64,000 nucleotides of DNA from Chelativorans sp. (lineage in GTDB: Bacteria > Pseudomonadota > Alphaproteobacteria > Rhizobiales > Rhizobiaceae). Under the pieces are notes generated by a model that saw nothing but the letters and a program-made list of their open reading frames with translations, did no database searches and was not told the DNA's origin. Shown here one piece after another: positions 20,022-32,030 of this stretch (positions are counted from its first letter, which is position 1; each line of letters opens with the position of its first letter). A program made the position numbers and the translations under genes. The DNA lies in assembly GCF_031180965.1 (NCBI RefSeq), contig NZ_JAPSLH010000012.1, positions 1 through 64,000 of the forward strand, in the 5' to 3' direction.

Positions 20022-21329
20022 CTACACACCGCCCTTCATTGCGTTGCCGGCAACATAAGTCTCCACCACCGCGCGATCGTCGCCGAGCGTCTGCAGCAGG
20101 AATAACTCCTCGGCCAAGGTCTTTGCCCGCTCCATGCGCAGGCGCATTGCCGGCGTGGCGCTGGAATTGAGCACGACGAGATCGGCATCCTTGCCGGGCT
20201 CAAGCGTGCCAATGCGGCGGGCAAGCGACAGGGCTTCGGCATTGCCGCGCGTGATCTGCCAGAAGGAGGCGAGGGGATTCAGCTTTTCCCCCTGCAGGGC
20301 GATCACCTTATAACCCTCGTCCATGGTGCGCAGCATGGAATAGTTCGTGCCGCCACCCGTGTCGGTCGCGGCCGCGATGCGCAGCGGCTTTTCGCGCCGG
20401 CGATAGCGCAGATAGTCGAACAGGCCGGAACCGAGGAAAAGGTTCGAGGTCGGGCAGAACACCGCCACCGAGCCGGAGTCGGAAAGCGCATCCGCCTCGC
20501 GCTCGGAAAGATGGATGCAGTGGCCGAACAGGCTTTTCGGCCCCAGCAGGCCGTATTTCTCGTAGATCGCCGTGTAGTCGGCGCAGTCCGGGTAGAGTTC
20601 GCAGGAAAAGGCGATCTCGGCGTGGTTTTCCGAAAGATGGGTCTGCATGTGCAGGTCGGGATGCTCCGCCACCAAGGCCTTGGCCATCTCCATCTGCTCC
20701 GGCGATGAGGTGATGGCGAAGCGCGGGGTGATCGCGTAATGAAGCCGGCCCCTGCCGTGCCACTTTGCGATCAGCGCCTTGGTGTCGTCGTAGCTCGATT
20801 GCGCGGTGTCGGTGAGTGCGGAGGGCGCGTTGCGGTCCATCATCACCTTCCCGGCGATGATGCACATGCCGCGCTCCTCGGCCTCCGAGAAAAGAGCGTC
20901 GGCCGATTGCGGGTGCACGCTGCAATAGACAGCCGATGTGGTTGTCCCGTGCCGCGCCATCTCGTCCAGGAAGGCGCGGGCGATGCGCCGGGCATGCGCC
21001 TCGTCCTCGAACGCGCTTTCGGCCGGAAAGGTATAGTTGTTCAACCAGTCGAGCAACTCCGCCCCATAACTCGCGATCACCTGCATCTGCGGGAAATGCG
21101 CATGCGCATCGATGAAGCCCGGAAGCAGAAGGTGCGGGCGGTGGTCGATGGTTTTGGCATCCGGGCCGGCTTTCGCCGCAAGGTCCGAATGGCTGCCTGC
21201 GGCGCGGATGATACCTTCTTCCACCAGCACCGCCCCGTCCTCCTCGTATCGATAGGAGGAATGATCATGCGCTGCCTGCGGCTCGCGCAGGAAGGTGAGA
21301 AGGCGGGCGCGGATCAGGATTTTTGCCAT
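20022..21329 (-). CDS. guaD: Guanine deaminase
   Basis: A 435-residue amidohydrolase that deaminates guanine to xanthine in the cytoplasm. The zinc-site residues are in place: PGFIDAHAHFPQ (HxH), QTHLSENHAEI, FGHCIHLSE and ATDTGGGTN, and the sequence is full length for bacterial GuaD. It starts 21 bp after the stop of the urate oxidase gene and is probably co-transcribed with it. Its product feeds xanthine dehydrogenase encoded a few kb away. The 3' side carries a GCGGG/CCCGC hairpin (about 20004-20018). Confidence 0.95.
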   Translation of the reverse strand: MAKILIRARLLTFLREPQAAHDHSSYRYEEDGAVLVEEGIIRAAGSHSDLAAKAGPDAKTIDHRPHLLLPGFIDAHAHFPQMQVIASYGAELLDWLNNYTFPAESAFEDEAHARRIARAFLDEMARHGTTTSAVYCSVHPQSADALFSEAEERGMCIIAGKVMMDRNAPSALTDTAQSSYDDTKALIAKWHGRGRLHYAITPRFAITSSPEQMEMAKALVAEHPDLHMQTHLSENHAEIAFSCELYPDCADYTAIYEKYGLLGPKSLFGHCIHLSEREADALSDSGSVAVFCPTSNLFLGSGLFDYLRYRRREKPLRIAAATDTGGGTNYSMLRTMDEGYKVIALQGEKLNPLASFWQITRGNAEALSLARRIGTLEPGKDADLVVLNSSATPAMRLRMERAKTLAEELFLLQTLGDDRAVVETYVAGNAMKGGV

Positions 21330-21350: not shown

Positions 21351-22565
21351 TCAGCGCGCTTCTTCGAACCAGGTGACGAGCAGCCGGCGTTCCTGCTCCG
21401 TCATAGCCGAGACATTGCCGGGTGGCATGGCATGGCTGCGGCCTGCCTGCAGATAAATCTCGCGCGCATGAGCGGCGATGCCGGCATCCGTGTCGAGCCT
21501 GACGTTCTTGGGCGCCGCGTGCACGCCTTCAAAGCCGGGTTCGGCCGCATGGCACATGGCGCAGCGGCCCATCACCGTGTCGCGCACGGCCGGAAATTGC
21601 GTGGAGGCGATGAAGCGCTCCTCGGCGGCGGAGATTTTTCGCTCGCCGGTCAAGACCGCGGGCACGGTGGAAAGCCACATGATGATGACGAAGAGGATAG
21701 CGGCCGCGGCCCAGGTCCAGTGCGGGTTGCCCTTCCGCGCATGGACCGTATTGAAATAGTGCCGGATCAGCACGCCGATGATGAAGATGAGCGAGGCGAT
21801 GATCCAGTTGAACTTGGTGCCGAACGCAAGCGGATAGTGGTTCGACAGCATCAAAAAGATCACTGGCAGCGTGAGGTAATTGTTGTGCAGCGAGCGCTGC
21901 TTGGCCTGCGCGCCCAGCTTCGGGTCCGGCTTCCTCCCGGCCTTCAGGTCGGCCACCACGATCTTCTGGTTGGGGATGATGAGGAGGAAGACGTTGGCGG
22001 ACATGATGGTGGCGGTGAAAGCGCCCAGATGCAGGAACGCCGCGCGGCCGGTGAAAAGCTGCGTATAGCCCCAGCTCATCGCCACCAGGATTGCGTAGAG
22101 CACCAGCATGAGCGCGGTGTCGCTTTTCCCCAGAGGCGATTTGCAGAGCGTGTCGTAAAGAAGCCAGCCGAGGCCGATGGAGGCTAGCGAGATTAGGATC
22201 GCAGTGGGTGCGGAGATGTCGAGCACGTTGCGGTCGATGAGAAAAAGATCGGCGCCCGCGTAATAGACGATGGCGAGCAGCGCGAAGCCCGACAGCCACG
22301 TAGAATAGGCCTCCCATTTGAACCAGGTGAGATGCTCCGGAAGGCTTGCGGGTGCTATCAGATACTTCTGGATGTGATAGAACCCGCCGCCATGCACCTG
22401 CCATTCCTCGCCGTGGACGCCTTCCGGGAGCCCCTCCCGCTTCACGAGGCCGAGATCCAGCGCAATGAAGTAGAAGGACGAGCCGATCCAGGCTATGGCG
22501 GTCACCACGTGCAACCAGCGCACCGCGAAGGACAGCCAGTCCCACAAGACGGCATAGTCGTTCAT
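21351..22565 (-). CDS. puuD: Membrane cytochrome c urate oxidase (PuuD)
   Basis: A 404-residue fusion of about eight membrane helices with a C-terminal cytochrome c domain. The heme motif CAMCH is near residue 333 and the distal Met lies in HAMPPGNVSAMT. N-terminal features WLHVVTAIAWIGSSFYFI and GEEWQVHGGGFYHIQKY match the DUF989 membrane domain of PuuD, described in Agrobacterium as a urate oxidase that passes electrons to the respiratory chain rather than making H2O2. The product is 5-hydroxyisourate, which UraH takes on. ATG 22565 is preferred over ATG 22577. It is divergent from the LysR regulator and transcribed before guaD. Confidence 0.93.
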   Translation of the reverse strand: MNDYAVLWDWLSFAVRWLHVVTAIAWIGSSFYFIALDLGLVKREGLPEGVHGEEWQVHGGGFYHIQKYLIAPASLPEHLTWFKWEAYSTWLSGFALLAIVYYAGADLFLIDRNVLDISAPTAILISLASIGLGWLLYDTLCKSPLGKSDTALMLVLYAILVAMSWGYTQLFTGRAAFLHLGAFTATIMSANVFLLIIPNQKIVVADLKAGRKPDPKLGAQAKQRSLHNNYLTLPVIFLMLSNHYPLAFGTKFNWIIASLIFIIGVLIRHYFNTVHARKGNPHWTWAAAAILFVIIMWLSTVPAVLTGERKISAAEERFIASTQFPAVRDTVMGRCAMCHAAEPGFEGVHAAPKNVRLDTDAGIAAHAREIYLQAGRSHAMPPGNVSAMTEQERRLLVTWFEEAR

Positions 22566-22635
22566 GCCCGCTCCCACTCCTTTTAGGGCCAGCTTACGAG
22601 TTCCATCCTAAAGGGAAAGGGATGGCCGGCGCGAT

Positions 22636-22651
22636 GACTTTCAAATTTATC
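22636..22651. promoter_or_regulatory. Shared purine-cluster motif, copy 1
   Basis: GACTTTCAAATTTATC lies in the puuD-lysR divergent region, 36 bp before the lysR ATG. A near-identical 16-mer (15 of 16 bases) occurs at 29181-29196 in the uraH-puuE divergent region. It also fits a TTTC-N11-GAAA dyad (with the GAAA just downstream), compatible with the T-N11-A rule for LysR operators. Most likely an operator or activator site of the adjacent LysR protein. Confidence 0.5.
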
Positions 22652-22686
22652 TGGAAAATCACTGCTGCAGGCGTTTCATTGGTAAA

Positions 22687-23607
22687 ATGGCCTATCTGGA
22701 CAACATCGCCGTCTTCGTCCGCGTGCTGGAACTTGGCAGCCTCTCGGCAGCGGGGCGTGATATGCGGATTTCGCCGGCGGTCGCCTCGAACCGCATCAAG
22801 GAGCTTGAAAAGCATCTCGGCGTGCGGCTGCTCAACCGCACGACCCGGCAGCTGACCGCCACCGAGCACGGGCGCGCTTTTTATGGCGGCGCCAAGAAGG
22901 TGCTGGAGGCGGTGGAGGAGGCGGAAGCGGCGGTTGCCGCGCTCTCCGGCCAGCCGCGCGGCACGATCCGCGTCACCGCGCCGCTGGGCCTGGGCAAGAG
23001 GCTGATCGCCAGCGGCATTCCCGAATTCCGCGAGCGCTACCCACAAATCGAGGTGCGGCTGAGGCTCTCCGACCACGAGGTCGACATCATGCGCGAGGGC
23101 ATCGATGTCGCCTTCAAGTTGGGGCTACTCGAAAATTCCAGCCTGCGCATGCGCGGCATCATGGATTGCGAGCGCGTGCTCGCCGCCTCGCCGAAATATC
23201 TGGAAAAGCGTGGGGAGCCGCAGCGGCCTGAGCAGCTCGTCGAAGACGGCCACGATTGCCTGATGCTGCGCTTTCCCGGCGTGCGCGAATATTTCTGGAC
23301 GTTGCAGACGGAATCGGGACCGCAGAAATTCGAGGTGCGGGGGCCTTTCGACACGGATGATGGCGACGTGATCACCGGCTGGGCGCTCGCCGGCCACGGC
23401 ATCATCAACAAGCCTCGCTTCGAGATCGAGCCCTTCATCCGCGACGGGCGCCTGAAGGTTATCCTGCCCGAAAACCCGCCCGTGCCGGTGAAGCTCGCGG
23501 CGGTCTACCCGCACAAGAAGCTGCAGGACCCGAAAGTGCGGCTGCTCGTCGATTTCATGGCCGAACGCTGCCAGCGCATGATCGGGGAGATTTTGAGAGG
23601 AAGGTGA
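22687..23607 (+). CDS. LysR-family regulator of the purine cluster
   Basis: A 306-residue LysR protein: winged HTH at residues 1-60 (LGSLSAAGRDMRISPAVASNRIKELEKHLGVRLLNR), linker helix, then the effector-binding domain (GTIRVTAPLGLGKRLIASGIPEF, VAFKLGLLENSSLRMRG). It is of the single-target, CrgA-like branch. It is divergent from puuD-guaD, and the intergenic motif at 22636-22651 recurs at the other purine promoter region, so it is the best candidate for the local regulator; the inducer might be urate, xanthine or allantoin. The ATG has a weak ribosome binding site. A truncated antitoxin gene begins one base after its stop. Confidence 0.93.
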   Translation: MAYLDNIAVFVRVLELGSLSAAGRDMRISPAVASNRIKELEKHLGVRLLNRTTRQLTATEHGRAFYGGAKKVLEAVEEAEAAVAALSGQPRGTIRVTAPLGLGKRLIASGIPEFRERYPQIEVRLRLSDHEVDIMREGIDVAFKLGLLENSSLRMRGIMDCERVLAASPKYLEKRGEPQRPEQLVEDGHDCLMLRFPGVREYFWTLQTESGPQKFEVRGPFDTDDGDVITGWALAGHGIINKPRFEIEPFIRDGRLKVILPENPPVPVKLAAVYPHKKLQDPKVRLLVDFMAERCQRMIGEILRGR

Positions 23608-23608
23608 C

Positions 23609-23788
23609 ATGAAAAAGAAGATTCCTGTTTTTAAAACAGACGAGGACGTTGAGGCGTTTATCGAGAACGCTGACCTCAGCGAATATGATCTCAGCGAGTT
23701 CAAGCCTTTCCGGTTCGAGCTCACTAAGGAGAAAGATGAGGGCGAGGAGCCCGTGTCCCGCCCTCGTCCTTCGACAAGCTCAGGATGA
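23609..23788 (+). pseudogene. Truncated CopG/BrnA-like antitoxin, 3' end replaced by a repeat
   Basis: A 59-codon frame with a good ribosome binding site (GAGAGGAAGG). The first 44 residues (MKKKIPVFKTDEDVEAF..., then DLSEYDLSEFKPFRFEL) match the N-terminus of CopG-type antitoxins, which normally continue with about 40 residues of ribbon-helix-helix DNA-binding domain. Here the frame passes into a palindromic intergenic repeat (23760-23792) and stops inside it, giving the tail SRPRPSTSSG. The DNA-binding domain is absent and no toxin gene is adjacent. I read it as a toxin-antitoxin remnant, although the frame could still be translated. The AT-richer codon use (AAA, TTT, ATT) contrasts with its neighbours and suggests foreign origin. 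Confidence 0.7.
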
Positions 23789-23792
23789 GGGC
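23760..23792. repeat. Palindromic intergenic repeat (GCCCTCGTCCT hairpin)
   Basis: Arms GCCCTCGTCCT (23760-23770) and AGGATGAGGGC (23782-23792) match at 10 of 11 positions around TCGACAAGCTC. I recognise this palindrome as a dispersed element seen between genes in many alphaproteobacteria. It sits between the lysR side and xdhC, which converge here, so it may also act as a bidirectional transcript end. Confidence 0.75.
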
Positions 23793-23836
23793 TTGCGCCG
23801 GCGCTTCAGGCAACGGGCGTTTGCGTCCGCTGATGT

Positions 23837-24637
23837 TTATAACAGCGCCCGCAGCACCTCCGCCGCCGTCAGCGCCGCGATGACCGCGGGGCGCTTGTCG
23901 CGAAGGTCGGCTCCGCCGATGGGGCAGACGAGGCGGGCGAGGCGGGAGTCTTCGCCTCCGTGTTTCAGGTACCAGCTTCGAAACGTGGCTTTCTTCGTCT
24001 TTGAGCCGATCATGCCGACATAGGCCGTATCGTCGCGCGCCAGCGCCTCGGAGACGATGAGGAAATCCAGCGAATGCTCGTGCGTGAGCACGACGAAGGC
24101 CGAATGCGGCGGCGCTTGGCGAACAGTCTCCTCGGGCACCGCGGTGAGTTTTTTCTCCACAACGTCCGGCAGATTTTCCAGCGCTTCGGTTCTCGTCTCG
24201 ACCACAATCGTGCGAACCGGGAGCAGGGCAAGTGCCGCCGCCAGCGCATGGCCCACATGGCCGCCGCCGAAAAGATAGATATTGGGGCGGGCGGCGTCTT
24301 CCGTCTCTGCCCGGATCAGCAATTCGGCACGTTCCGCCGGACCGGCAATGCGGATGTCGACTGCCACGCGCCCGCCGCAGCACTGGCCGATCTCGGGGCC
24401 GAGCGGGATATCGAGCGCGCCGCTTGCGATGTTTTCCGCAATCAGCTCGCGCGCCTTGGCGATCGCCAGGAATTCGAGCTGCCCGCCGCCGATCGTGCCG
24501 AAGATTTTCTCAGGCGAAACGAGCATCCATGCGCCCACTTCGCGCGGGGTCGAGCCTTTGGCCTCGGCAACGGTGACGAGGGCCGCTGCGGGGGATGCCT
24601 TGAGGAAAGCGGCGAGGCTCTTGGCGAGGGCCGTCAT
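23837..24637 (-). CDS. xdhC: Xanthine dehydrogenase accessory protein XdhC
   Basis: A 266-residue XdhC/CoxI protein. The N-terminal half has VTVAEAKGSTPREVGAWMLV and IGGGQLEF; the C-terminal half is a Rossmann-like domain (NIYLFGGGHVGHALAAAL, FVVLTHEHSLDFLIVSEAL, AYVGMIGSKTKKATF, CPIGGADLRDKRPAVIAALTAAEVL). XdhC binds molybdenum cofactor and installs it, in sulfurated form, into XdhB. It is the last gene of the uraH-xdhA-xdhB-xdhC run and is separated from xdhB by 274 bp of inverted repeats, so its expression may be uncoupled. Confidence 0.93.
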   Translation of the reverse strand: MTALAKSLAAFLKASPAAALVTVAEAKGSTPREVGAWMLVSPEKIFGTIGGGQLEFLAIAKARELIAENIASGALDIPLGPEIGQCCGGRVAVDIRIAGPAERAELLIRAETEDAARPNIYLFGGGHVGHALAAALALLPVRTIVVETRTEALENLPDVVEKKLTAVPEETVRQAPPHSAFVVLTHEHSLDFLIVSEALARDDTAYVGMIGSKTKKATFRSWYLKHGGEDSRLARLVCPIGGADLRDKRPAVIAALTAAEVLRALL

Positions 24638-24911
24638 GACCGGAGATGCCTGACGGCCCTTGGCGGATAGGATCGCGATCCTTCACGCCCCCCTCTGGCC
24701 TGCCGGCCATCTCCCCCACAAGGGGGGAGATTGGCTTTCGCGACTGCTTTCGCCAATCGCCACCGCTCCGAAGAGGGCGGAGCAATGCGGCCAGCGTAAT
24801 CTCCCCCCTTGTGGGGGAGATGGCCGCCCCTCGACAAAAGCTCGGGAGGCCAGAGGGGGGTGGTGAAGGGCGAAAGCATTTCAGAACAATAGCGGGCCGA
24901 AACCGCGTATT
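24638..24911. repeat. Long inverted repeat inside the xdh operon
   Basis: The gap contains a perfect 28-bp inverted repeat: 24705-24732 is the exact reverse complement of 24798-24825, and each arm is itself a hairpin built on CTCCCCCACAAGGGGGGAG. Homology extends outward less perfectly to about 24680 (CCTTCACGCCCCCCTCTGGCC) and 24869 (GGCCAGAGGGGGGTGGTGAAGG, broken in the right arm by an insertion near 24826-24847). The 65 bp between the arms show no gene. It looks like two opposed copies of a dispersed rhizobial intergenic repeat inserted within an operon. Confidence 0.85.
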
Positions 24912-27257
24912 CTACCTTCCCGCTTCCGCCTTCAGCCGCTCCACGGCGAAAAGCACGCGCTCGGGCGTGGCGGGGGCGTCGAGGCGCGGGCAGATCTTGT
25001 AATCGGCCACGCTCGCCACCGCATCGGAAAGCGCGTGCAGAACGGAAATGGCGAGCATGAAGGGCGGCTCGCCCACGGCCTTGGAGCGGTGGATGGTTGG
25101 CTCGGCATTCTCCGCCCAGTCGGCAAGCTTTACGTTGAAGATTTTCGGCCGGTCGGAGGCAAGGGGTATCTTGTAGGTCGAGGGCGCATGCGTCCGCAGC
25201 CTCCCCTTTTCGTCCCACACCAGCTCCTCGGTGGTGAGCCAGCCCATGCCCTGGATGAAGCCGCCCTCGATCTGGCCCAAGTCGATGGCCGGGTTCAGGG
25301 AGCGGCCGGTCTCGTGCAGGATATCCACCCGCTCCACCATGTATTCTCCGGTGAGCGTGTCGATGGAAACTTCCGTGCAGGCGGCGCCATAGGCGAAGTA
25401 GTAGAAGGGCTGGCCGCGGCCCTTGTCGCGGTCCCAGTGGATTTTCGGGGTCTTGTAGAAGCCGGCAGACGAAAGCTGCACGCGCGCCATATAGGCCTGC
25501 TTGATCAGATCGGCGAAGGGGATTTCCTGGTTGCCGACGCGCACGCGGCCCGGCAGGAATACCACCTGCTCATGTGGCACCTCGTACCGGTCGGCGGCGA
25601 AATCGATGAGCCGGTCCTTGATCTGCCGCGCGGCATTTTGCGCCGCCATGCCGTTCAGGTCCGAGCCGGAGGAGGCGGCGGTTGCCGACGTGTTCGGAAC
25701 CTTGCCGGTGGTGGTGGCCGTGATCTTCACCTGGTCGATGTCGATCTGGAATTCTTCCGCCACCACCTGGGCCACCTTCACGTAAAGGCCCTGGCCCATC
25801 TCCGTGCCGCCATGGTTCAGGTGCACGGAGCCGTCGGTATAGACATGCACCAGCGCGCCGGCCTGGTTGAAATGGGTGGCGGTGAAGGAGATGCCGAATT
25901 TTACAGGCGTCAGCGCGATGCCGCGCTTGATGATTTCGCTCCCGGCATTGAAGGCCGCGATGGCCTGCCGCCGCCCGGCATAATCGGCACTCGCCTCCAG
26001 CTCGGCCACGAGGCGGTGGATGATGTTGTCTTCCACCGTCTGGTGGTAGGGGGTGACGTTGCGGTCCGTCTCGCCGTAGAAATTGCGTTTGCGGATTTCG
26101 AGCGGGTCCTTGCCGAGCGCGAAGGCGATCTCCTCGACCACGCGCTCCGCGCCCACCATCCCCTGCGGTCCGCCGAAGCCGCGGAAGGCTGTGTTCGAGA
26201 CCGTGTTGGTGTAGAGCGGCACTGACGCCGCGCGCACCACCGGATAGAAATAGGCGTTGTCGCAGTGGAAGAGCGCGCGGTCGGTGACCGGCCCGGAGAG
26301 ATCGGCTGAAAAGCCGCAGCGGGCGGCATATTTCAGGTGGACGCCGAGGATGTTTCCTTCGTCGTCGAAACCGACGTCGTAGTCGATCAGGAAGTCGTGC
26401 CGCTTGCCGGTGGCCGTCATGTCGTCGTCGCGATCCGGGCGCAGTTTTACCGGCCGGCCGGTTTGCTTGGCGGCGATCGCCGCCACCGCGGCAAACAGGT
26501 TCGCCTGGGTTTCCTTGCCGCCGAAGCCGCCGCCCATGCGGCGCACCTCGACGGTCACGGCATGCGAGGGCACGCCCAGCGTATGGGCTACTATATGCTG
26601 CACCTCGCTCGGGTGTTGTGTCGAGGAGTGGACGGTCACGTCCATGTCCTCGCCCGGCACGGCAAGGGCGATCTGGCCTTCAAGGTAAAAATGGTCCTGC
26701 CCGCCTACGCGCATTTGCCCCTTGATGCGGCGCGGGGCCCGGGCGATCGCATCCTCGGCTTCGCCGCGCTTCAGCGTCAGCGGCTTCGTCACCAGCTTCG
26801 GATTCGCCGGGTCCGCGTCAGCGATGTCGATGATGGCCGGCTTTTCCTCGTATTCGATCTTCGCCTTCTGGCAGGCGCGACGGGCGGCCTCCCGCGTCTC
26901 GGCGATCACGGCGAAGATCGGCTGGCCGAAGAACTGCACCTCCTTTTCAGGGAAGATCGGCTCGTCGTGCAAGCCGGTGGAGCTGATATCGTTTACGCCC
27001 GGCACATCTTTCGCGGTGAGCACAGCGATTACGCCCGGCGCGGTCTCTACCTCCGAAAGATCCATCGCGCGGATGGTGCCGTGCGCAACCGTGGAAAGCC
27101 CGAGATAGGCGTGCAGCGTGCCGGCCGGCTCCGGCAGGTCGTCGATATAGACGGCTTCGCCGGCCACATGTTTGTGCGCGGAGTCGTGGCGGAGGCTGAT
27201 GCCCACGCCGCCGGTGATTGTCGTCCTGGTAAGATCGAGCGCCTCGTGCTTGGTCAT
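24912..27257 (-). CDS. xdhB: Xanthine dehydrogenase, molybdopterin-binding subunit XdhB
   Basis: A 781-residue molybdenum hydroxylase large subunit that oxidises hypoxanthine and xanthine to urate with XdhA. Motifs include the Mo-site MGGGFGGKETQANLF, FRGFGGPQGM, the cofactor loop SSGSDLNGMAAQNAA and the catalytic Glu region KAVGEPPFMLAIS near the C-terminus; EMGQGLYVKVAQV contacts the cofactor. The length is normal for bacterial XdhB. The ATG overlaps the stop of xdhA by four bases, so the subunits are translationally coupled. XdhC maturation protein follows after the repeat gap. Confidence 0.96.
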   Translation of the reverse strand: MTKHEALDLTRTTITGGVGISLRHDSAHKHVAGEAVYIDDLPEPAGTLHAYLGLSTVAHGTIRAMDLSEVETAPGVIAVLTAKDVPGVNDISSTGLHDEPIFPEKEVQFFGQPIFAVIAETREAARRACQKAKIEYEEKPAIIDIADADPANPKLVTKPLTLKRGEAEDAIARAPRRIKGQMRVGGQDHFYLEGQIALAVPGEDMDVTVHSSTQHPSEVQHIVAHTLGVPSHAVTVEVRRMGGGFGGKETQANLFAAVAAIAAKQTGRPVKLRPDRDDDMTATGKRHDFLIDYDVGFDDEGNILGVHLKYAARCGFSADLSGPVTDRALFHCDNAYFYPVVRAASVPLYTNTVSNTAFRGFGGPQGMVGAERVVEEIAFALGKDPLEIRKRNFYGETDRNVTPYHQTVEDNIIHRLVAELEASADYAGRRQAIAAFNAGSEIIKRGIALTPVKFGISFTATHFNQAGALVHVYTDGSVHLNHGGTEMGQGLYVKVAQVVAEEFQIDIDQVKITATTTGKVPNTSATAASSGSDLNGMAAQNAARQIKDRLIDFAADRYEVPHEQVVFLPGRVRVGNQEIPFADLIKQAYMARVQLSSAGFYKTPKIHWDRDKGRGQPFYYFAYGAACTEVSIDTLTGEYMVERVDILHETGRSLNPAIDLGQIEGGFIQGMGWLTTEELVWDEKGRLRTHAPSTYKIPLASDRPKIFNVKLADWAENAEPTIHRSKAVGEPPFMLAISVLHALSDAVASVADYKICPRLDAPATPERVLFAVERLKAEAGR

Positions 27258-28729
27258 GCCGCTTCCCCGCGCTCGACCTGCAGCGGGCCGGAATGCCCGC
27301 TCGTTTCGAGAAAGAAGCGCCGCAGAAGATTCCTGGCCGCCAGCATGCGGTATTCGGCGGAAGCGCGCATGTCGCTGATTGGCGTGAAATCCTGGCCATA
27401 GGCGGACAGCGCGTTTTCGATCGTGGCCTCAGTCCACGGCCTTCCGAGAAGCTCTGCCTCCACGGCTTTCGCGCGCTTCGGTGTCGCCGCCATGCCGCCA
27501 TAGGCGATGCGCGCGGAGGCGACGGTGCCGTCCGCCGCCATCTTCACCGCGAAGGCGCCGAGCACGGCCGTGATGTCCTCGTCGCGGCGCTTGGTGATCT
27601 TCCACGCGGCAAAGCGGGTGTCGGGATCGGGGAGTGGGACATGCACCGCCTCGACAAATTCGCCCGGCTGCCGGTCCTGTTTGCCATAGGCGATGAAGAA
27701 ATCTTCGAGCGGAATGGTGCGCCGCGTATTGCCCTTGCGCAGCGTGAGCGTGGCTCCCAGCGCGATCAGCGGCGGCGGGGTGTCGCCGATGGGCGAGCCG
27801 TTGGCGATGTTGCCGCCGATGGTGCCCATGTTGCGAATCTGGTCCCCGCCAATGCGGTCGATCAGGCGGCCGAGCGCCGGGACGCGGGGGGCAAGCGCCT
27901 CGAAGGCTTCCGAATAGCTGACGCCGGCACCGATGGTGATCGTGCCGTCATTCTCCGCAATCGTGCGCAGCTCTTCCAGCCCGCCAATGAAGACGACGGG
28001 CGCGATCTCGCGCATGAATTTCGTCACCCATAGGCCCACATCCGTGCTGCCCGCCACGATGGTCGCCTTGGGCTCGGCTTCCAGCACAGCCGCCAGATCA
28101 TCGAGGCTGGCGGGGATGACGAGGCGATCGCGGCCCGCGCCGATCTCCACGCGCGCGCCGTCCTTCATGGCAAGAAGCGCGGTTTTCAGCGCTTCGCGCT
28201 CCAGTGCCAGCGGGTCCGATCGGGCATCGCCATAGGCGGGGATGGCGCGGGCGGCGCGCATGATCGATTCATAGCCGGTGCAGCGGCAGAGGTTTCCCTG
28301 CAGCGCCTTCTCGATCGCCCTGTCGCCCGGCTGCGGGTTGTTCATCCAGAGCCCGTAGAGCGACATCACGAAGCCCGGCGTGCAGAAGCCGCATTGCGAG
28401 CCGTGATGGTCCACCATCGCCTGCTGCACGGGATGGAGCAAGCCATCCGGCCGCTTCAGATGCTCGACCGTGACGACATGGCAGCCGTCAAGCGAGGCAA
28501 GAAAGCGGATGCAGGCGTTCACGCCCTCATAGACGAGCTTGCCGTCAGCAAGCCGGCCCACCAGCGCGGTGCAGGCGCCGCAGTCGCCCTCGGCGCAGCC
28601 TTCCTTGGTGCCCATCAGGCGGCGGTCGAGCCGCAGATAGTCGAGCAGGGTCTGGTCGGGCCGGACGTCCGCGAGCGCGATCTTCAGGCCGTTCAGAAGG
28701 AAGCGGATTTCATTGCGGGTGGCGGGCAT
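27254..28729 (-). CDS. xdhA: Xanthine dehydrogenase, FeS/FAD subunit XdhA
   Basis: A 491-residue small subunit. The N-terminal 2Fe-2S domain has CAEGDCGACT near residues 40-50, followed by the second 2Fe-2S domain (QCGFCTPGFVMSLYGLW, NLCRCTGYESIMRAA); the FAD domain starts around residue 190 (TIVAGSTDVGLWVTKFMR, IGGNIANGSPIGDTPPPLIALGA). It passes electrons from the molybdenum centre of XdhB to NAD+. The start overlaps the uraH stop by one base (TGATG) and the stop overlaps xdhB by four, so uraH, xdhA and xdhB are tightly coupled. Confidence 0.96.
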   Translation of the reverse strand: MPATRNEIRFLLNGLKIALADVRPDQTLLDYLRLDRRLMGTKEGCAEGDCGACTALVGRLADGKLVYEGVNACIRFLASLDGCHVVTVEHLKRPDGLLHPVQQAMVDHHGSQCGFCTPGFVMSLYGLWMNNPQPGDRAIEKALQGNLCRCTGYESIMRAARAIPAYGDARSDPLALEREALKTALLAMKDGARVEIGAGRDRLVIPASLDDLAAVLEAEPKATIVAGSTDVGLWVTKFMREIAPVVFIGGLEELRTIAENDGTITIGAGVSYSEAFEALAPRVPALGRLIDRIGGDQIRNMGTIGGNIANGSPIGDTPPPLIALGATLTLRKGNTRRTIPLEDFFIAYGKQDRQPGEFVEAVHVPLPDPDTRFAAWKITKRRDEDITAVLGAFAVKMAADGTVASARIAYGGMAATPKRAKAVEAELLGRPWTEATIENALSAYGQDFTPISDMRASAEYRMLAARNLLRRFFLETSGHSGPLQVERGEAA

Positions 28730-29088
28730 CAGCTTCCCCGGTAGGTCGAATAACCGTAGGGCGAGACGAGCAGCGGCACGTGGTAATGCGCGCGCTCGGC
28801 CATGCCGAAGCGGATCGGCACGCGGTCGAGGAAAGCCGGGGAGGGAAGTGCAGCCCCTTTGGCGCGCAGGTATTTGCCCACCGCGAACACGAGCTCATAT
28901 TCGCCGGGCGCAAAGGCCGTGCCCTCCAGGAGTGGCGCGTCGCAGCGGCCGTCGGCATTGGTCCGGACCGTCTTCACCAGCGTGCGACTTTCGCCTTCGA
29001 GCCGATAGAGCGCAATTTCCATCCCGGCCGCGGGGCGGCCTGCCGCCGTATCGAGAACATGGGTCGTCAGCCGTCCCTGTTCGCCCAT
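28729..29088 (-). CDS. uraH: 5-Hydroxyisourate hydrolase
   Basis: A 119-residue transthyretin-related protein. It begins with [19 protein letters not shown], carries the conserved [19 protein letters not shown] end including the diagnostic C-terminal YRGS, and is typical in length. It hydrolyses 5-hydroxyisourate from PuuD to OHCU, the substrate of the UraD domain encoded across the divergent promoter. There is no signal peptide, so it acts in the cytoplasm. First gene of the uraH-xdhA-xdhB-xdhC run. Confidence 0.96.
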
Positions 29089-29180
29089 GCGGCCTCCCTT
29101 CGGTACCGTGTTTCAGCCGATGGATTGTGCGGCAAATCGCGCGCGCGCATAAGGGGGGTGCGGCGGAAAGGCTGCAAAAA

Positions 29181-29196
29181 GACTTTCAAATTTTTC
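29181..29196. promoter_or_regulatory. Shared purine-cluster motif, copy 2
   Basis: GACTTTCAAATTTTTC lies in the 169-bp divergent region between uraH and the allantoinase gene. It differs by one base from the 16-mer at 22636-22651 beside the LysR gene. A single site here could control both the uraH-xdhABC run and the puuE-allE-allA run. Confidence 0.5.
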
Positions 29197-29257
29197 GTGG
29201 GGAATGGGTGCCGGAACCTTCGGCTATCCTTGAAAGCGACGTGGAGGGATCCAAACG

Positions 29258-30697
29258 GTGACACGCTACTGCCGAAACATGCGCGGCTATGGCCCCAACC
29301 CGCCGGACGCAAAATGGCCTGGCGGCGCCTATGTGGCCGTGCAATTCGTCGTCAATTACGAGGAGGGCGGCGAAAACTGCATTCTGCATGGGGATGCCGC
29401 CTCCGAAGCTTTTCTATCTGAAATCGTCGGTGCTGCCCCATGGCAGGGCATGCGGCACTGGAACATGGAGTCGATCTACGAATATGGCGCGCGCGCCGGC
29501 TTCTGGCGGCTTCACCGCATGTTCACGGAAGCCGAGGTGCCGGTGACGGTCTATGGCGTCGCCACCGCGCTTGCCCGCGCGCCCGACCAGGTGGCGGCCA
29601 TGAAGGAAGCCAGCTGGGAGATCGCCAGCCACGGGCTGCGCTGGATCGACTACCGCGCCCACTCCGAGGAGGACGAGCGCCGCGATTTGCAGGAGGCGGT
29701 GCGGCTGCATACAGAGGTGGTGGGCGAGCCGCCGCGGGGACTTTATCTCGGCCGCACGTCGGTGAATTCGTTGAAACTTGCCATCGAGCATGGCGGGTTC
29801 GACTGGATTTCCGACACCTATGACGACGACCTGCCCTATTGGATCGACCACGACGGGCACGGCAATCCGACGCGGCCGCAGCTGGTGATTCCCTACACGC
29901 TCGATGCCAATGACATGCGTTTCGCCACGCCGCAGGGGTTCAACTCCGGCGACCAGTTCTTCGCCTATCTCAAGGACGCGTTCGACACGCTCTATGAGGA
30001 GGGCAGGGCAGGGCGGCGGCCTGCCATGATGAGTGTGGGCCTGCATTGCCGCCTCATCGGGCGGCCCGGCCGTGCGGCCTCTCTGAAACGCTTCATCGAA
30101 TACGTACAAAGCCATGACAGGGTCTGGCTGCCGCGCCGCATCGACATTGCCCGCCATTGGATGGAGCATCATCCATATCAGGCGCCGGAGCTCAGGCCGA
30201 GCCGGATGGGCAAGGGCGATTTTGTGGAGCGTTTCGGCTCGATCTTCGAGCATTCGCCCTGGCTTGCCGAGCGTGCTTTCGCGCTGGAGCTTGCGGCGGC
30301 GCATGACAGCGCTGGCGGCCTCCACAATGCGCTCGTGCGGGTTTTCCGCTCGGCGAGCGAAGAGGAGCGGCTCGGTGTACTGAAAGCGCATCCGGACCTT
30401 GCCGGAAAGCTTGCGGCGGCGAAACGGCTCACGCCGGATTCGGCCAAGGAGCAGGCTTCCGCCGGCCTCGACGCGCTGACGGACGAGGAGCGCGCGCGCT
30501 TCACCGATCTCAACACGCGCTACACGCAAAAATTCGGCTTTCCCTTCATCATCGCCGTCAAGGACAATACGAAGGAAAGCATTTTGCGCGCGTTCGAACA
30601 CCGGCTCGAGAACAGCCGCGAGGAAGAGTTTGCGACCGCCTGCCGCCAGGTGGAGCGCATCGCCTATCTGCGGCTCAAGGATATCCTGCCCTCATGA
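29258..30697 (+). CDS. Allantoinase (PuuE) fused to OHCU decarboxylase (UraD)
   Basis: A 479-residue two-domain enzyme. Residues 1-310 form a polysaccharide-deacetylase-fold allantoinase of the PuuE type (GYGPNPPDAKWPGGAYVAVQF, SYE-like NYEEGGENC, ASHGLRWIDYRAHSEEDE, GLHCRLIGRPGR). From about 315 onward is a UraD domain (FVERFGSIFEHSPWLAERAF, LKAHPDLAGKLA, LTDEERARFTDLNTRYTQKFGFPFI with the catalytic His in HPDL). The fusion performs OHCU to S-allantoin and allantoin to allantoate. It starts at GTG 29258 behind GGAGGGA. Its stop overlaps the allE start by four bases. Confidence 0.94.
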   Translation: MTRYCRNMRGYGPNPPDAKWPGGAYVAVQFVVNYEEGGENCILHGDAASEAFLSEIVGAAPWQGMRHWNMESIYEYGARAGFWRLHRMFTEAEVPVTVYGVATALARAPDQVAAMKEASWEIASHGLRWIDYRAHSEEDERRDLQEAVRLHTEVVGEPPRGLYLGRTSVNSLKLAIEHGGFDWISDTYDDDLPYWIDHDGHGNPTRPQLVIPYTLDANDMRFATPQGFNSGDQFFAYLKDAFDTLYEEGRAGRRPAMMSVGLHCRLIGRPGRAASLKRFIEYVQSHDRVWLPRRIDIARHWMEHHPYQAPELRPSRMGKGDFVERFGSIFEHSPWLAERAFALELAAAHDSAGGLHNALVRVFRSASEEERLGVLKAHPDLAGKLAAAKRLTPDSAKEQASAGLDALTDEERARFTDLNTRYTQKFGFPFIIAVKDNTKESILRAFEHRLENSREEEFATACRQVERIAYLRLKDILPS

Positions 30698-31536
30698 CCA
30701 GAACCTACTTCGCGCCCACAGGCGGCCACCCGCCGCAGACCGACCTTCTCACCGGCCGCGCGGTCTTCACCGAGGCCTACGCCGTGATCCCCAAGGGCGT
30801 GATGCGCGACATCGTCACCAGCCGGCTTCCCTTCTGGGAAAAGACCCGGGCTTGGGTGATCGCCCGCCCGCTCTCGGGCTTTGCGGAGACTTTTTCCCAG
30901 TACATCATGGAGGTCCTGCCGGGCGGCGGCAGCGAAAATCCGGAGCCTTACCGGGAAGCGGAGGCGGTGCTGTTTGTGGTCGAGGGCGAACTGACCGTGC
31001 GTCTCGACGGGGAAAGCCACCGCATGCAGCCGGGCGGCTACGCCTTCCTGCCCTCCGCGAGCCGCTGGAGCGCGCATAATGAAGGCTCGGAGCCGGTGCG
31101 CTTCCATTGGATCCGAAAGGCCTATGAGGCGGTGGAGGGGATCCCGGTGCCCGATGCCTTCTTCGTTAATGAGAAGGATATCGCGCCGACACCCATGCCC
31201 GGCACGGAGGGCAAGTGGGCGACGACGCGCTTTGTCGATCCTGATGACGTCCGCCACGACATGCATGTGACCATTGTCACCTTCGAGCCGGGCGCTGTGA
31301 TCCCCTTTGCCGAAACCCATGTCATGGAGCACGGACTCTACGTGCTCGAAGGCAAAGCGGTCTACCGGCTCAACCAGGATTGGGTCGAGGTGGAGGCCGG
31401 AGACTTCATGTGGCTGCGCGCCTTCTGCCCGCAGGCCTGCTATGCCGGCGGGCCTGGGCGGTTCCGGTACCTCCTCTACAAGGATGTGAACCGGCATGCG
31501 TCTCTCAAACCGCTGTGGCGGCAGCATCCACGATGA
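30694..31536 (+). CDS. allE: (S)-Ureidoglycine aminohydrolase, bicupin
   Basis: A 280-residue protein of two cupin domains. The first cupin includes EAEAVLFVVEGELTVRLDGE and PGGYAFLPS; the second holds the Mn-site pattern PFAETHVMEHGLYVLEGKAVYRLN with the expected Glu and His residues, and the C-terminus YLLYKDVNRH is typical. It converts (S)-ureidoglycine to (S)-ureidoglycolate plus ammonia. The gene overlaps both neighbours by ATGA, showing a tightly coupled operon. Its substrate comes from allantoate amidohydrolase, which is not encoded in the window. Confidence 0.94.
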   Translation: MTRTYFAPTGGHPPQTDLLTGRAVFTEAYAVIPKGVMRDIVTSRLPFWEKTRAWVIARPLSGFAETFSQYIMEVLPGGGSENPEPYREAEAVLFVVEGELTVRLDGESHRMQPGGYAFLPSASRWSAHNEGSEPVRFHWIRKAYEAVEGIPVPDAFFVNEKDIAPTPMPGTEGKWATTRFVDPDDVRHDMHVTIVTFEPGAVIPFAETHVMEHGLYVLEGKAVYRLNQDWVEVEAGDFMWLRAFCPQACYAGGPGRFRYLLYKDVNRHASLKPLWRQHPR

Positions 31537-32030
31537 AAATCACCGCAGTTCCACTCACCCGTGCCGCCTTCGCGCCCTTTGGCGACGTGATCGATACGGA
31601 AGGCGCGCAAAGCTTTCCGATCAATAACGGCAAGACGCAGCGCTTCCACGACCTCGCTACGGTGGACGTGCAGGGGGAGGCGGCGCGCGTGCTCATCAGC
31701 ATCGCCCGCGGGCAGCCATACACCTTTCCCCTGAAACTCACGATGGTCGAGCGCCATCCGCTGGGGAGCCAGGCCTTCATTCCGCTTGAGCCCCGGCCGT
31801 TCCTCGTCGTTGTCTGCCTCGATGAGGGCGGACGGCCGGGCAGGCCGCAAGCCTTTCTCACTGGAGCCGGCCAAGGCGTGAATTATGCCCGCAACACCTG
31901 GCACGCAGTGTTGACGCCTATCGGCGAGAAACAGGATTTTCTCATCGTCGACCGCGGCGGCGACGGCAACAATCTGGAAGAATTTTTCTTCTCCGAGCCC
32001 TACGAAATCCACCTGCCGGATAGGCCATGA
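31533..32030 (+). CDS. allA: Ureidoglycolate lyase
   Basis: A 165-residue AllA-family protein with FAPFGDVIDTEGAQSFPINNGKTQRFHDL at the start, VERHPLGSQAFIPLEPRPFLVVV in the middle and NYARNTWHAVLTPIGEKQDFLIVDRGG near the end, all typical. It splits ureidoglycolate to glyoxylate and urea. ATG 31533 overlaps the allE stop; a longer open frame upstream lies inside allE. The glyoxylate produced could be used through glycerate and GckA. Confidence 0.95.
   Translation: MKITAVPLTRAAFAPFGDVIDTEGAQSFPINNGKTQRFHDLATVDVQGEAARVLISIARGQPYTFPLKLTMVERHPLGSQAFIPLEPRPFLVVVCLDEGGRPGRPQAFLTGAGQGVNYARNTWHAVLTPIGEKQDFLIVDRGGDGNNLEEFFFSEPYEIHLPDRP

Follow-up and report, generated by a model that had tools for sequence, protein, structure and literature searches.

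In a stretch of 64,000 nucleotides from Chelativorans sp. (contig NZ_JAPSLH010000012.1, positions 1 to 64,000; referred to here as the window), genes for purine breakdown flank two divergent intergenic regions, one located between puuD and a lysR gene, the other between uraH and a puuE-uraD fusion gene (puuE in the following). The question that this locus raises is whether a short sequence common to both regions serves as the operator through which the encoded LysR-type protein (22687-23607) governs the entire gene set. The preliminary description of this DNA had drawn attention to two 16-mers, GACTTTCAAATTTATC at 22636-22651 and GACTTTCAAATTTTTC at 29181-29196; both were re-read in the sequence and are present at these positions, identical at 15 of 16 nucleotides and separated by a single-base difference. 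We conclude that the motif very probably constitutes the left arm of an operator for this LysR protein that serves both gene sets; binding, effector and sign of regulation are inferred.

The resemblance between the two 16-mers carries little weight by itself. In the window, 575 pairs of 16-mers agree at at least 15 of 16 positions (337 after collapsing), about twice as many as in three random windows of the same first-order statistics (186-264 pairs, 122-155 collapsed), and the counting of such repeats was dropped as a line of evidence because pairs of this kind are common there. Since the similarity of the pair is unremarkable in 64 kb, the argument depends on conservation and context, and the unusual features are where the pair lies and, above all, how well it is conserved. 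When random pairs were drawn for the two control regions, none out of 400 had a 16-mer in common at 15 of 16 positions. A scan of the window with up to three mismatches to GACTTTCAAATTTWTC returned exactly these two sites, as had been claimed, against a mean of 0.26 matches in 100 shuffled windows. The same scan of the organism's own genome, an assembly of 64 contigs that totals 4.37 Mb and is 95% complete, gave 13 matches: these two, which are exact, a further two at two mismatches and nine at three. With just two close copies in the genome, the motif is uncommon outside these regions.

The motif is conserved in front of the same genes in relatives, and its core is found at both puuD/lysR and uraH/puuE across genera. 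In the 80 loci retained from Chelativorans, Nitratireductor, Mesorhizobium, Aminobacter and Pseudaminobacter, a close LysR orthologue adjoins purine genes; it is also encoded on plasmid records of Sinorhizobium, Ensifer, Phyllobacterium and Rhizobium, three of which, together with pSymB of S. meliloti, were examined and carry the same cluster. Among the first 104 loci, duplicates included, each lysR gene has the core upstream with no more than one mismatch. For counts of distinct intergenic gaps, more distant loci were added and identical gaps merged, while loci in which either gene was not found, in which the genes were not divergent, or in which they lay more than 900 bp apart were omitted; L097-L101 were removed because not one of the nine genes sought (purine genes and lysR) was seen in them. 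Where the LysR orthologue is present, the core occurs in 115 of the 119 puuD/lysR gaps and in 99 of the 106 uraH/puuE gaps counted as distinct. Ninety of these 99 core-positive gaps read ACTTTCAAA, four TCTTTCAAA, three AGTTTCAAA and two ATTTTCAAA, so that only the first two bases of the core vary.

Comparison with the relatives also redefined the element itself. The boundaries of the 16-mer are arbitrary, and it was replaced as a unit by a site of 23-24 bp of which it forms the left part. Putative operator 1, ACTTTCAAATTTATCTGGAAAAT (22637-22659, plus strand), lies between the divergent puuD and lysR genes, and putative operator 2, ACTTTCAAATTTTTCGTGGGGAAT (29182-29205, plus strand), between the divergent uraH and puuE genes. 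In relatives, the puuD/lysR site takes the form ACTTTCAA-N7-TGGAAAAT, preceded by GATG in close relatives; the uraH/puuE site consists of ACTTTCAAA, an A/T-rich stretch and then approximately GGGGAAT, often with AAAG in front. Operator 1 is a dyad at 7 of 11 positions and can be read by eye as TTTC-N11-GAAA, in which the bases 11 apart are C and G, compared with T and A in the T-N11-A box of LysR proteins. Information content was calculated from 33 loci thinned to less than 85% LysR identity, which supplied 27 lysR sites and 17 puuE sites. Over 23 columns it averages 1.40 bits at the lysR site (0.45 and 0.14 bits in the two flanks) and 1.37 bits at the puuE site (0.34 bits in either flank), values that are partly circular for the core, which served to locate the sites with up to one mismatch. 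The right arm was absent from this search criterion and is nevertheless conserved.

If the site is an operator of the LysR protein, it should be distributed with the regulator, and the motif does track the orthologue. In a survey of 247 genomes of the family, a LysR orthologue was detected in 135 (E-value of at most 1e-80) and puuE in 227. The strict extended pattern ACTTTCAAAWWWWN{1,6}RRRAAW is present in 93 of the 135 genomes with the regulator and in 10 of the 112 without it; a reversed control pattern matched in 11 of the 247 (table read by eye). Genomes whose orthologue is at least 64% identical carry the pattern in 86 of 109 cases, and those with a more distant orthologue in 7 of 26, some of these matches lying away from purine genes. 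The key control is formed by purine clusters that lack LysR, for which we took the 28 LysR-lacking genomes with a fused puuE among the matches listed (E-values down to 2e-196), leaving out weaker or split matches. Of the 28, a single one has the core (at up to one mismatch) in the 400 bp upstream of puuE, and one has less than 100 bp of sequence there. Four LysR-lacking genomes with weaker or split puuE (G118, G109, G199 and G231) have no core near puuE. The same divergent uraH/puuE gap is retained in 16 of the 28 clusters, and when G008 (see below) is included, the core is found in 2 of 17 divergent gaps without LysR versus 99 of 106 with it (Fisher p 3e-12, uncorrected for kinship). The two exceptions are G008 and G204, the latter a fragmented assembly of 930 contigs. 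Other LysR-lacking assemblies are incomplete (G016, G108, G164, G198 and G234, at 66-88%), and in some of these genomes lysR may be lacking from the assembly alone. In genera that comprise genomes with and without LysR and have a close orthologue, five of six genomes with LysR carry the pattern (G160, G203, G262, G265 and G288; not G273, which has the core at both places in an altered setting), and none of the six without it does (G109, G118, G134, G199, G213 and G231).

Two congeners provide natural experiments. In G006, the cluster is split over two contigs, with guaD-puuD-lysR on the first and allE-puuE-uraH-xdhABC on the second, neither near a contig end, and the site is kept on both; the presence of the site in each of the separated halves fits a diffusible regulator. 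G008 has kept puuE (86% identical), uraH, xdhABC, puuD and guaD in order, with two other open frames (285 and 216 amino acids; L299:9888-11686) between xdhC and puuD in place of lysR and operator 1. No remnant of lysR was found in this stretch, and the best LysR relative in the entire G008 genome is 36% identical. The copy remaining at uraH/puuE reads ACGTTCAAA, with a changed core base. This single case is no proof, and it suggests that the change in the core was coupled to the loss of lysR, which would make G008 a natural example of a regulator and its operator sharing a coupled fate.

The positions of the two sites relative to predicted promoters were then considered. A puuD promoter, CTTTCC-N17-TAAGCT, is predicted at 22591-22619 on the minus strand, and its spacing and TAAnnT box recur in 74 of 125 loci; operator 1 would lie at about -64 relative to it, and the -35 box there is poor. 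For puuE, a -10 box (TATCCT; 29225-29230, plus strand) is predicted at a distance of 43 bases from where operator 2 begins; in 57 of 106 loci the corresponding distance is 42-44 bases. Operator 2 would then lie at about -43 relative to this promoter, over a poor -35 region. LysR-type activators usually have their recognition site near -65. The distance from operator 1 to the lysR start codon is 33-74 bases in 118 of 126 loci, which fits control of the regulator's own gene. In three Mesorhizobium loci (L129, L139 and L165), the lysR operator is found 164-201 bp before lysR, and in at least two of them the spacer resembles, by eye, an inserted repeat. Taken as a mechanism, the predicted LysR protein would bind both operators. 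At puuD/lysR it would regulate lysR itself and switch on puuD-guaD, and from uraH/puuE it would switch on uraH-xdhABC in one direction and puuE-allE-allA in the other, with a purine or an early catabolite, for example xanthine or urate, as the presumptive effector. The protein is probably an autoregulated, purine-responsive activator, a role that the predicted -64 and -43 positions fit. The proposal of the preliminary description, that the LysR protein controls puuD-guaD, uraH-xdhABC and puuE-allE-allA as one regulon, thus gains support from the conservation, rarity and co-occurrence of the site.

Several observations weigh against this assignment. The left arm is common to both sites, but the right arms differ, and the symmetry of operator 2 is small (2 of 11 positions, or 4 of 12 when read as a 24-mer). 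A -10 box of puuE was not seen in 46 of the 106 loci. Seven of the 106 uraH/puuE gaps from loci with LysR are core-negative and differ in TTTCAAA or beyond. Misses occur mainly with orthologues of about 50-58% identity: among such loci, of which 12 (from 26 such genomes) were picked by hand along with 20 further regions, the core is found upstream of lysR in 5 of 12, and the site often can no longer be recognised where the orthologue is most divergent. In five distant loci (L094, L096, L249, L254 and L258), the best candidate near puuE has the opposite orientation. The core at puuE is also missed in L279, which has a 75%-identical LysR, and the strict pattern is absent from 23 of the 109 genomes with a close orthologue. 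In mixed genera that have only distant orthologues, the pattern does not separate genomes with LysR from those without. In addition, the genomes are related, so that p values overstate their independence.

These points have to be weighed together with other explanations of the site. That the pair is a chance resemblance, as the abundance of 15/16 matches in the window might suggest, has next to no probability; it is refuted by conservation at both places across genera and by the empty result from the 400 random region pairs. The site is AT-rich and close to predicted promoters, and could on these grounds be part of a promoter, an upstream element rich in A/T or the target of a general factor for purine genes without any relation to LysR. 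Clusters that lack LysR are, however, mostly without the site (one of 28 upstream of puuE, 2 of 17 gaps), and a general factor would not leave just two close sites in 4.37 Mb, so that we give this explanation a very slim chance; a plain part of the puuE promoter in particular is made unlikely by the LysR-lacking loci. We consider it improbable, if somewhat less so, that another transcription factor, encoded elsewhere and co-inherited with the cluster, binds the site. The presence of lysR follows kinship, and a second factor could have the same distribution, but one copy of the site always stands beside lysR in the first 104 loci, and in G008 lysR and operator 1 have gone, the rest of the cluster is retained and the other core is changed. 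Three genera (g95, g104 and g146), moreover, have members with and without LysR, and among these the pattern is found in five of five genomes with LysR and in none of four without; a fourth mixed genus (g120) has it in none of one and none of two, respectively, and the LysR-lacking members of these genera have different purine loci.

A further alternative leaves the LysR protein in place as the binding partner and reverses its sign, such that it would act mainly as a repressor of the catabolic genes that is released by purines. The centre of operator 1, at about -64 of puuD and before a poor -35 box, would occupy the usual position of an activator and speaks against this alternative, which we judge unlikely. 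In its favor, operator 2 and the -35 region of puuE would overlap, and a CrgA protein of Pseudomonas aeruginosa is described as a repressor (PMC6422896). We retain activation by the LysR protein as the preferred reading.

The genes concerned lie between 20022 and 32030 of the window. The presumed binding protein is encoded by lysR (22687-23607, plus strand). On the minus strand, puuD (21351-22577) encodes a membrane urate oxidase with a Urate_ox_N domain and guaD (20022-21329) a guanine deaminase; uraH (28729-29088), coding for hydroxyisourate hydrolase, is the first gene of the uraH-xdhA-xdhB-xdhC set and is followed by the genes for the small subunit (xdhA, 27254-28729), the molybdopterin subunit (xdhB, 24912-27257) and the accessory protein (xdhC, 23837-24637) of xanthine dehydrogenase. 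On the plus strand, the puuE-uraD fusion (29258-30697) specifies allantoinase and OHCU decarboxylase, allE (30694-31536) an (S)-ureidoglycine aminohydrolase, and allA (31533-32030), for which the name ureidoglycolate lyase was taken over from the preliminary description, was confirmed as an open frame with its start set by eye. Two matches to the PuuE-UraD protein (E-value of at most 1e-80) in the organism's own genome reveal a second PuuE relative beyond the one in the window. The predicted regulon would thus cover guanine deamination, xanthine and urate oxidation and the steps to and through allantoin, with purine uptake added in some species.

The LysR protein itself scores 64.8 bits for HTH_1 (cut-off 26.6) and 129 bits for the LysR substrate domain (cut-off 28). 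Among the matches listed (25 of 46 families), its best LysR equivalog is YafC, at 204.9 against a cut-off of 470, and neither YafC, TtdR, AaeR nor any other LysR equivalog reaches its cut-off. Enterobacteria possess HpxR, AllS and PunR as LysR-type regulators of purine or allantoin genes, a likeness in protein type and purine linkage; the score comparison covers PunR (NF008294) only, for which the protein stays below the cut-off (41.1 versus 345 bits). By sequence, the nearest solved chain is 3hhg (E-value 9e-45), identified as CrgA of Neisseria in PMC6422896. The likeness to this CrgA-like branch extends to the domain make-up and to a gene that is divergent from its target with the operator in between; the differences are that the targets here are purine-catabolic and that the dyad is TTTC-N11-GAAA instead of a plain T-N11-A. 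The CrgA sites of P. aeruginosa given in that paper are GC-rich mirror repeats, unlike the sites described here (PMC6422896).

A possible counterpart is known from S. meliloti. There, according to the sections of PMC5596199 consulted, the LysR gene SMb20847 lies downstream of xdhA2-xdhB2, is upregulated with them under nitrogen limitation and is suspected of controlling them, and bdhA is said to adjoin xdhA2. The resemblance resides in a LysR gene beside xanthine dehydrogenase genes. On pSymB of strain 1021, our LysR protein has one relative at an E-value of at most 1e-60, which is 67% identical and encoded in the purine cluster at 867099-868007; it may be SMb20847. The sections consulted name no operator (PMC5596199). 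The portions consulted of PMC7674921, PMC5343134 and PMC12373482 contain nothing on this regulon. Our literature searches, which reached few subscription journals, brought up no paper recognizable as an account of this operator or regulon, and a prior prediction in RegPrecise or RhizoBindingSites is possible. The comparison of genomes supports well a candidate new operator and regulon of a familiar kind; for purine breakdown in rhizobia and their relatives it predicts a local regulator together with its operator sequence and a small regulon.

Among the matches listed, most sites in genomes with LysR are located, by eye, at the two promoters; the window genome has only these two. Nine matches away from the two promoters were examined; others, for example in G168, G233, G237 and LysR-lacking genomes, were left out. 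A third site, found at 227 to 313 bp before a purine permease gene, occurs in four loci of the Sinorhizobium/Ensifer type (S. meliloti 1021, S. medicae WSM419, G255 and G269); the permease was identified by the Pfam family Xan_ur_permease in G255 and G269 and by near-identical N-termini in the two Sinorhizobium records, where the site has one core mismatch. In Rhizobium tropici, a permease gene is near the cluster and no third site was found within one mismatch. Because S. meliloti 1021 carries both purine-cluster sites and the one before the permease, the predicted regulon is testable in this strain.

It is conceivable, and we advance it tentatively as somewhat less than an even prospect, that lysR and its dispersed operators form a portable purine-nitrogen module. 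This module would have been gained and lost repeatedly in Hyphomicrobiales, and perhaps also in further Alphaproteobacteria; it would be carried by chromosomes as well as large plasmids, its operators would change soon after loss of the regulator, and in Sinorhizobium and Ensifer its control would extend to a purine permease. Purines and ureides can be produced by legume nodules, and bacterial control of purine use hence bears on nitrogen exchange. If true, such a module would help to decide whether a root-nodule bacterium (Sinorhizobium, Ensifer) can use host-derived purines.

Of the remaining matches, L280 and L281 represent the same sites again, on 3.5 kb contigs or at a contig end, and the site in L282 precedes an NCS2 permease gene. 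pSymB of S. meliloti holds three exact matches to CTTTCAAAWWWW, one of which (717468) is away from purine genes. The matches L285, L287 and L288 fall within or next to a pdxH-like gene (named by eye) and look like chance. Motif-like sites followed by TATCCAAT repeats were seen in two genera (L283:3512, L284:3359 and L286:2935), situated between an oxygenase-like gene and a GntR gene that is followed by a gene for a BMP-type binding protein (Pfam for L284 only); they may belong to a GntR system, possibly a second, GntR-controlled purine system.

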